A stretch of DNA of 64,000 bases from an uncultured Paenibacillaceae bacterium (GTDB lineage Bacteria > Bacillota > Bacilli > Paenibacillales > K13), in NCBI GenBank assembly GCA_913056365.1, contig CAJXLT010000012.1, forward strand, positions 1 through 64,000. The letters are read 5' to 3'. Below are positions 14,011 to 16,294 of the stretch, one piece after another. How positions within the stretch are numbered: the stretch's first letter is position 1; every line of letters starts with the position of its first letter. The position numbers and the translations under genes were made by a program. Below the pieces are notes generated by a model. That model was not told the origin of the DNA and did no database searches. It worked only from the letters and a program-made list of their open reading frames with translations.

Positions 14011-14904
14011 ATGTGTGCGAGTAGGGATTTGGAAAAGGTGAAGACAGCATTGACGCAACGGCAGGTGAGGTTGACGAATGGCAAGACTGTGCCGGCAATT
14101 GGACAGGGTACGTGGTATATCGGTCAATCCCTGGCTAAGCGTCAGCAGGAAATTAATAGCTTACGGCTGGGCGTCGAGCTTGGGATGACATTGATCGATA
14201 CGGCGGAGATGTACGGTGACGGCTTGTCTGAGGAGCTTGTAGGTGAGGCGATTCGCGGGTTGCGGGATGAGGTGTTCCTCGTCTCGAAAGTATACCCGCA
14301 CAACGCAGGGCTTGGAACAATTGCGAGCAGCTGTGAACAAAGCTTGCGAAGGCTGGGTACAGACTGCTTGGATCTCTACTTGCTGCATTGGCGCGGAAGT
14401 GTGCCGTTCAGTGAGACGATCGAGGGCATGGAGAAGCTGGTGGAGGCGGGTAAGATTCGCAGCTGGGGTGTCTCGAATCTCGATACGGCAGATATGGAAG
14501 AGCTGACCGCGCAGGCGCAAGGAACCCACTGTGCCACGAATCAGGTGCTCTATCATCTGGGCTCGCGCGGGATCGAATACGATCTGCTCCCTTGGCAGCG
14601 TGCGAATGACATGCCAATTATGGCTTACTGTCCATTGGCACAGGCAGGCTCTCTGCGCAGAGGATTGGTGGAGCATCCGACGGTACAAGCAATTGCGAGC
14701 AATCACGGTATCTCCCCTTATCAGCTGTTATTGGCTTGGTGTATACGCAAGGAAGCGGTTATCGCGATTCCGAAGGCTTCCTCGGAGGAGCATGTCCGTG
14801 AGAATGCAGCGGCGATTCTCGTTGAACTGTCCGCAGAAGAGCTGCTGCAGCTGGATGAAGCGTTCCCTGCTCCGACTCGCAAGCTGCCATTGGATATTGT
14901 GTGA
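14011..14904 (+). CDS. Aldo/keto reductase
   Basis: 297-residue TIM-barrel NADPH-dependent aldo/keto reductase. The catalytic tetrad can be read as Asp and Tyr in DTAEMYGDG, Lys in FLVSKVYP and His in LYLLHWRG; the cofactor-phosphate region AIPKASSEEHVREN is near the C terminus. It probably reduces aldehydes or ketones such as methylglyoxal or sugar aldehydes, as in the AKR5-type group, but the substrate is not defined by sequence. ATG at 14011 follows AGAAGGGAG with good spacing; a TTG two codons earlier is less likely. It is monocistronic and is followed by a DnaA-box cluster. Confidence 0.9.
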   Translation: MCASRDLEKVKTALTQRQVRLTNGKTVPAIGQGTWYIGQSLAKRQQEINSLRLGVELGMTLIDTAEMYGDGLSEELVGEAIRGLRDEVFLVSKVYPHNAGLGTIASSCEQSLRRLGTDCLDLYLLHWRGSVPFSETIEGMEKLVEAGKIRSWGVSNLDTADMEELTAQAQGTHCATNQVLYHLGSRGIEYDLLPWQRANDMPIMAYCPLAQAGSLRRGLVEHPTVQAIASNHGISPYQLLLAWCIRKEAVIAIPKASSEEHVRENAAAILVELSAEELLQLDEAFPAPTRKLPLDIV

Positions 14905-14954
14905 GGCACATATCCTTGTCCGGATGGGGCGATGGACATAGCTGTTAGGGTGCA

Positions 14955-15106
14955 TGTGGATAGGTACATTGTCCACAGTTCTATCCACATTACCCACAAG
15001 GAGCCGACTACGGTTGTGCATAAGAATAGGCCTATCCTATTAACATATCCACAGAATTACTTGTCCACAGGTTGGATCTTGTCGAATGAACAGGAAGTTA
15101 TCCACA
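14955..15106. promoter_or_regulatory. Cluster of eight DnaA-box-like 9-mers
   Basis: Boxes at 14955-14963 (reverse, CTATCCACA), 14969 (TTGTCCACA), 14981 (CTATCCACA), 14990 (TTACCCACA), 15015-15023 (reverse, TTATGCACA, full match to TTATNCACA), 15045 (ATATCCACA), 15061 (TTGTCCACA) and 15098 (TTATCCACA, perfect consensus). All others are one base off the consensus. The gap 14905-15301 has no gene. No dnaA, dnaN, rpmH or AT-rich unwinding element is near, so an origin is unlikely; a DnaA-titrating or regulatory cluster like those described outside oriC in Bacillus subtilis fits better. Confidence 0.8.
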
Positions 15107-15301
15107 ACTTGTAGCGGATCGCTTTTGTTTTCATAATCAGCCAGGAAGGGCATGTTAATCAGAATGAGATGAAGATTGGACTATAGGTGTGTTTTTTTCG
15201 CAGACAGTGTGGTTTTCTTAAGTAATTGTGGATGTGCGGCTATGTTCGACATGGGATTGTCTTATAATGAGGCATAACGAATGGAGAAGGGATGAGTGGC
15301 C

Positions 15302-16294
15302 ATGACAACACGAAGGATGGACAAGGTTTTGGTAACGGTGCAGTACCCGCCGCATCATTTCGATAGGATGAGCAAGGTGTTCGCCCCGGCAGAGCTGTTA
15401 GTCGTTGACAAGCATGATGATGAAGCGATGCAAGCTGCACTAGAGGTTGCGGATGCAGCGGTAATCGAAGGTGATTTGGATGAGCGCTTCTGGCAGGCGC
15501 CCAAGATGAAGTGGGTGCATTGTGACCACGCCGGACTGAATGGATCGGCCCGCCCTGAAGTATTCGAGCGAGGGCTGCTCGTCACAGGCTCCTCTGGGCG
15601 TTCTGCTCCAGTGCTTGCTGAACACGTTATGCTGTTCGCGCTGCTTCATGTATACCAATATGCGAATTTCTATGAAGCGCAGAAGAAGCATCAGTGGGGT
15701 GTGCCCGGCTATGAACAGCTACGCGGCTTGTATGGGAAGACGATGGGCATCATCGGTCTTGGCCATACTGGCAAGGAGCTAGCTGTGCGCGCCAGCGCAT
15801 TCGGCATGCGAGTGCTGGGTTACCGGCATAGTGCCGGTTCTCCGCCGCCGAGTGTTGATCAGCTGTATAGCGCTGCGGCTGGCGATTCGCTGGATACACT
15901 GCTGCAGGAGAGCGACATTGTAGCGTTGGCGGTTCCGCTCAGTGACGATACGCACCACCTGATCGGGGAGAAGGAATTGCAGCTGATGAAGCCGACCGCC
16001 TGTTTGATTAATATGGCGCGCGGTGCTGTAGTGGATGAAGCAGCCTTGGTGAAGGCGCTGCATGACGGGGAAATCGGCGGCGCCGGGCTCGACACCTTCG
16101 TCCAAGAGCCGATGCCTGCGGACGACCCGCTGTGGGATGCGCCGAACACGTATATTACGCCGCATTGCACGCCTGCGGTGCCGGATCGGATCGGGCGCTC
16201 GCTCGATGTCATCTGCGAGAATGCTGTACGCTTCCGCGAAGGGCGCGAGCTGCTGAACCTGCTGCGCAAGGAGCAGATGTACACGAAGGGCTGA
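15302..16294 (+). CDS. D-isomer-specific 2-hydroxyacid dehydrogenase
   Basis: 330-residue NAD(P)-dependent dehydrogenase. The Rossmann domain inserted in the middle carries GIIGLGHTGKELA (GxGxxG). Catalytic residues of the family are visible: Arg in NMARGAVVDE, Glu in LDTFVQEPMP and His in YITPHCTPA. This set belongs to D-lactate/glyoxylate/phosphoglycerate dehydrogenase relatives; the absence of an ACT domain argues against SerA. The start could be ATG 15302 or GTG 15296; AGAAGGG lies upstream, and a TATAAT at 15263-15268 is a possible -10 box. A terminator follows at 16343. Confidence 0.88.
   Translation: MTTRRMDKVLVTVQYPPHHFDRMSKVFAPAELLVVDKHDDEAMQAALEVADAAVIEGDLDERFWQAPKMKWVHCDHAGLNGSARPEVFERGLLVTGSSGRSAPVLAEHVMLFALLHVYQYANFYEAQKKHQWGVPGYEQLRGLYGKTMGIIGLGHTGKELAVRASAFGMRVLGYRHSAGSPPPSVDQLYSAAAGDSLDTLLQESDIVALAVPLSDDTHHLIGEKELQLMKPTACLINMARGAVVDEAALVKALHDGEIGGAGLDTFVQEPMPADDPLWDAPNTYITPHCTPAVPDRIGRSLDVICENAVRFREGRELLNLLRKEQMYTKG

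Follow-up and report, generated by a model that had tools for sequence, protein, structure and literature searches.

The described systems closest to the locus reported here are the clusters of DnaA boxes that lie outside oriC in Bacillus subtilis and the datA and DARS loci of Escherichia coli. The original paper on the B. subtilis clusters, by Okumura in 2012, reportedly calls them oriC-proximal in its title. Joint removal of the six off-oriC clusters leads to early initiation, which a single cluster placed elsewhere partly relieves, as described in PMC13220808 and PMC5295017, the second of which nevertheless rates the role of the clusters as not significant. According to Table 1 of PMC4447404, the cluster regions contain 4 to 11 boxes per 300 bp and bind DnaA in vitro about as strongly as oriC. 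They lie near ywcI/vpr, gcp, trmE, ywlC, sda/yqeG and yydA, with gcp among the places listed in PMC4447404, where it is also stated that DnaA, acting from an array of this type, activates B. subtilis sda. B. subtilis is described in PMC13220808 as being without IHF, datA and DARS. In E. coli, each DARS locus is a short intergenic array in which the boxes are spaced at fixed distances and one of them is oriented against the other two, and datA needs an IHF site together with boxes 2, 3 and 7 (PMC5742627).

The window, by which we mean the whole stretch of 64,000 nucleotides that was analysed from the genome of an uncultured Paenibacillaceae bacterium, carries an array of this kind between an aldo/keto reductase gene (PF00248, 14005–14904, + strand) and a D-2-hydroxyacid dehydrogenase gene (PF02826, 15296–16294, + strand), both recognized with Pfam. 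A first-pass annotation had counted eight boxes within 152 bp, in both orientations and two of them exact, and a motif scan allowing at most one mismatch to TTATNCACA returned the same set: eight sites at 14955–15106, six on the + strand and two on the − strand, with exact boxes starting at 15015 (−) and 15098 (+) and boxes with one mismatch at 14955 (−) and at 14969, 14981, 14990, 15045 and 15061 (all +). The annotation had also held that chance would give far fewer. At the density of the genome, which has 4157 such matches in 4.65 Mb compared with 3026 for the reversed control pattern, 0.13 sites are expected per 152 bp, and the Poisson probability of at least eight is 1.7 × 10−12. The window as a whole contains 79 matches, against 46.4 in dinucleotide shuffles (SD 6.6, maximum 69), and outside the cluster no 152 bp stretch of it holds more than two. 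Among the stretches of the genome that were compared, this array is the densest 152 bp, with eight matches versus six downstream of tsaD and five at oriC.

The core of the array is a fixed layout of about 100 bp, in which box A is followed after 3 bp by box B, after a further 25 bp by box C in the opposed orientation, after 20–21 bp by box D, which is preceded by AAC, and after 7 bp by box E. In the window, the motif scan places A (TTGTCCACA) at 14969–14977 (+), B (CTATCCACA) at 14981–14989 (+) and C (TTATGCACA) at 15015–15023 (−), while D (15045–15053) forms, with the conserved AAC, the 15-mer ATTAACATATCCACA at 15039–15053 (+); E (again TTGTCCACA, 15061–15069, +) is also supported by an alignment of 73 copies of the element. 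The part that spans AAC and D, AACATATCCACA, is nearly invariant across these aligned copies, in which weaker box-like sites adjoin B and D. The first of these is represented in the window by box B′ (TTACCCACA, 14990–14998, +), which abuts B and which both the motif scan and the alignment detect, the family consensus at this place being a weaker, box-like site. Outside the conserved core the scan finds an outlying box with one mismatch (CTATCCACA, 14955–14963, −) and a distal exact box (TTATCCACA, 15098–15106, +); in the sister species, and also in one genome of family f5 (L003), reading of the aligned loci places a similar box 3′ of E. We note a TGTCGAA resembling a Spo0A box at 15080–15086, in the interval that separates box E from the last box; the sister species (L002) has it in this interval as well. 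Spo0A boxes overlapping DnaA boxes have been reported in the oriC of B. subtilis (PMC5295017).

When the whole region was compared by nucleotide BLAST with 99 genomes, two besides this one were matched, both weakly, and BLAST alone would have suggested little conservation; both of these relatives carry the same ATTAACATATCCACA string with the same box spacing, and a motif search was needed to see the layout. The exact D-derived 15-mer is present in 17 of the 296 genomes of the order, against one for the reversed control, and at 16 of its 19 places the layout surrounds it, with some boxes degenerate in some genomes. The other three places were set aside, L019 being a chance match in AT-rich coding DNA and L033 and L035 having a partial layout that was kept out of the profile described below. 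A pattern made of D and E only (AACATATCCACA followed by TNTCCACA across a gap of eight free bases) matches 78 stretches of a public set with one genome per species, 73 of them titled Paenibacillus, where a hand estimate with equal base frequencies gives about two by chance. Among the 74 Paenibacillus matches to this pattern, box A stands at its fixed offset in 69, box B in 66, A and B together in 66 and box C in 56; 50 matches have all three, and a single match has none of them; in the five matches from outside Paenibacillus, A, B and C are at offset in none (0/5). This offset test is independent of the profile, and since the 15-mer alone and the D–E pattern alone each lead to A, B and C in their fixed positions, the conservation is not circular. 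A box at +16 from D is also present in 65 of the 73 copies found with the profile, although offsets in these copies are partly built in by the way they were retrieved.

Conservation, on which the first-pass annotation had staked its reading, is thus strong by the 15-mer, by the profile and by the D–E pattern. The view that DnaA-box-like words have clustered here by chance or through base composition could draw on the abundance of one-mismatch matches in the genome. It is refuted by the 15-mer, the D–E pattern and the fixed offsets, which are conserved at non-orthologous places, and 20 mononucleotide shuffles of 145 kb produced no layout of four or more boxes; with the Poisson probability given above, we attach practically no credence to it.

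A sequence-only profile, R1, was built from the 16 layout-bearing loci. In this genome it has one strong match, to the window element, which it delimits as a complete element at 14968–15072 (+; 67.8 bits, E-value 2.4 × 10−18), and its next best matches, at oriC and at other clusters, reach at most 16.5 bits. R1 matches 206 of the 296 genomes of the order at an E-value of 0.01 or less, and strong places (35 bits or more) number 150 in 83 of the 296 genomes, these being 74 of the 104 genomes of family f5 and nine from families f1, f6 and f10, with one to several copies of the element per genome. Many genomes of family f10 have only weak matches or none, so not every member of the order has the element. 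In two f6 genomes (L104 946–1206 and L106 869–1128) two copies are arranged in tandem, with starts about 156 bp apart.

In a class-wide sample, R1 matches 50 of 398 genomes at an E-value of 10−4 or less, with a maximum of 32.4 bits outside the order. It meets weakly, at scores up to that maximum and often with half of the profile only, box clusters of other Bacilli near genes that we take to be tsaD/gcp, ywlC/sua5 and rlmH/yydA, the names having been assigned by eye from the translations. Two of the rlmH-linked arrays (L190 and L207) share the left half of the layout, A-3-B-25-C, and two gcp-linked arrays have a D-like CAACATATCCACA site. The left half shared outside the order hints that the fixed layout may predate the order. 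No DNA similar to the queried stretches was found in plasmid and phage collections and the D–E pattern had no match among viral contigs, and a plasmid or phage origin of the element was rejected on these grounds. A literature search, in which subscription journals were thinly covered, found no paper on DnaA-box clusters of Paenibacillus.

The 73 copies with flanks fall into 35 neighbourhoods by similarity of the flanking ORFs, the largest containing 10 copies. By a mechanical gene call, the neighbouring genes are co-directional at 29 copies ('> E >'), divergent at 22 ('< E >'), opposite at seven and convergent at six, with no call at nine, and at 14 of the 73 copies there is an overlap with a mechanical reading frame at least 100 aa long. 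From the orientations, the overlaps and the number of neighbourhoods it follows that the copies do not follow one gene; they look mostly intergenic and tied to no single gene. The first-pass annotation had offered, as a second possibility, a DnaA-controlled promoter for the dehydrogenase. On such a view, transcription of the neighbouring gene would be tied to replication by DnaA bound at the array. In the two genomes of the genus the element does lie about 200 bp upstream of the dehydrogenase gene, most copies are followed by a co-oriented gene (the 29 and 22 above), and the activation of sda from an array in B. subtilis, as given in PMC4447404, provides a precedent. However, the co-orientation may just mirror the usual leading-strand bias of genes, a consensus scan of 14850–15350 found no sigma-70-type promoter, and regulation of a gene would leave the near-oriC position described below unexplained. 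With unrelated genes in the 35 neighbourhoods, promoter control is not supported as a general role and we consider it distinctly unlikely, although a local effect on the dehydrogenase gene is possible.

The gene dnaA was located in 20 genomes, and position was analysed in the 12 of these for which the assembly is one contig of known length and strong matches were listed. All 25 strong copies in the 12 genomes lie 0.25–1.53 Mb from dnaA, corresponding to 6–45 % of the arm (mean 21 %), and 22 of the 25 read from A to E away from oriC. Compared with a uniform distribution along the arm, the Kolmogorov–Smirnov P value is 10−8, or 5 × 10−4 with one value (the farthest) per genome, the 12 genomes being related and the 25 copies therefore not independent events. 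Five genomes with strong matches were left out, having several contigs or no exact length (G052, G067, G077, G125 and G165); measured by hand, their copies are about 0.4–0.95 Mb from dnaA wherever both are on one contig, one copy in G067 not being measurable. The remaining three of the 20 (G002, G079 and G200) are without a listed strong match. The window element itself is on contig C12, which is unplaced relative to oriC, and gltB is 53 kb away on the same contig. In the relatives, gltB, located by hand, is in the left arm at 0.6–1.5 Mb from dnaA in 11 of the 12 genomes; in the remaining one, G050, it is far off. An origin-proximal place for the window element would fit this position of gltB in relatives, which is the sole basis for it.

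The only DnaA C-terminal domain found in this genome is encoded on contig C13, where a bipartite box cluster flanks dnaA, one part being upstream (10 matches in 300 bp) and the other immediately downstream. Exact TTATCCACA and TTATTCACA are among the oriC boxes, and the DnaA of this organism has the usual DNA-binding domain; since oriC uses the same TTATNCACA boxes, this motif is presumably also the one that this DnaA recognizes. A second replication origin, or the relic of an oriC that has moved, might be suspected from the dense boxes in both orientations, but dnaA with its bipartite cluster is on C13, the layout is absent from the oriC stretch of this genome and every strong copy in the 12 measured genomes is at least 0.25 Mb from dnaA, and we regard an origin here as very improbable. 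The earlier judgement that the array is not an obvious oriC is in keeping with this, and with the copies of relatives being near oriC but away from dnaA.

A second dense cluster is located directly downstream of tsaD/gcp (L009 4684–4900; G000:C7, about 82684–82900), with nine matches in 300 bp, and the layout is absent from it; B. subtilis has one of its clusters at this place. Four exact boxes and one near-match occur in about 100 bp, apparently intergenic, at L211 5661–5759 (G000:C8:77660–77758), and smaller clusters are present at L007 5859–5950 (G000:C14) and L008 4729–4790 (G000:C5). The C5 cluster is upstream of a gene that, judged by eye, is presumably tadA-like; in an f10 relative (L205), boxes likewise precede a similar gene. 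A search upstream of rlmH in this genome revealed no cluster. With the clusters at tsaD/gcp and on C14, C5 and C8, this genome carries a putative set of off-origin clusters comparable to that of B. subtilis, and the window element is apparently one more, with an architecture that the others lack.

The element is real, conserved and ordered. The recurrence of the same pattern beside unrelated near-origin genes in many bacteria of the Paenibacillus type suggests that it is a chromosomal element by which DNA replication is controlled, and we think it probable that this is an oriC-proximal, ordered DnaA-binding element that restrains initiation, a counterpart of the B. subtilis clusters with a fixed architecture. 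A counterpart of this restraining type had been proposed in the first-pass annotation, and it appears to be the best-supported reading, through the conservation seen with the 15-mer, R1 and the D–E offsets and through the oriC-proximal position in relatives; the fixed layout, the multiple copies, the independence from particular genes and the origin-proximal position go beyond what was then proposed. That DnaA binds the element and that initiation is affected we infer from the sequences. In outline, DnaA would bind the five-box array cooperatively, and the element, being copied soon after initiation, would double in dosage early; the doubled element would take up free, probably ATP-bound, DnaA, and this uptake would delay re-initiation at oriC.

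With its fixed layout, the element suggests an ordered complex of DnaA and not a loose sink. Simple titration needs neither fixed spacing nor a conserved AAC, so a richer mechanism may be at work, or another protein may read the site too. One such mechanism would be that of an active element like datA or DARS, on which DnaA, besides being held in the ordered complex, would have its nucleotide state altered by ATP hydrolysis or ADP release. The rigid spacing is the main reason for keeping this explanation; the single opposed box, the mixture of strong and weaker box-like sites and a length (about 100 bp) close to that of DARS1 (101 bp according to PMC5742627) are also consistent with it, and a different geometry could do work similar to that of datA and DARS. 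On the other side, the core-box spacing of DARS was not found in the element, the layout is absent from the DARS1, DARS2 and datA regions of E. coli, the aligned copies show no conserved accessory site in the gaps between boxes, and B. subtilis is, as noted above from PMC13220808, without IHF, datA and DARS. We therefore consider an active element of this kind unlikely.

A broader proposal, which we put forward tentatively and with considerable doubt, is that these arrays represent a portable DnaA-control family in Firmicutes, so far unnamed: a rigid five-box array on which a specific DnaA complex would assemble and alter the nucleotide state or the polymer of DnaA. Such an array would be retained in the vicinity of oriC, on one arm or on both, and serve as a gene-dosage timer. 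Its action would be like that of datA or DARS, with a different architecture. To our knowledge, Hda, SeqA, datA and DARS are not available to Firmicutes, and the element bears on how these bacteria time initiation. Being portable and of fixed geometry, present in several near-oriC copies and easily searched for with a profile, it offers direct objects for study, and strains with one copy and strains with many form a natural comparison.

Set beside the known systems, and on the reading that we favour, of an ordered element restraining initiation, the element resembles the B. subtilis clusters in consisting of non-coding TTATNCACA arrays away from dnaA, several per genome. It differs from them in being rigid in layout, the B. 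subtilis clusters being known by gene neighbourhood and compared here by published descriptions only, in which we met no mention of a fixed layout, and it is at none of their six places. Like DARS1 and DARS2, it is a short intergenic array with fixed spacing and one opposed box, although in DARS (I> 5 bp <II 3 bp <III) the boxes are close together, whereas in the element 25 bp and about 21 bp separate the opposed box from those on either side. Like datA of E. coli, it is a DnaA-box locus off the origin, and the restraint of initiation that we propose for it is a feature of datA.
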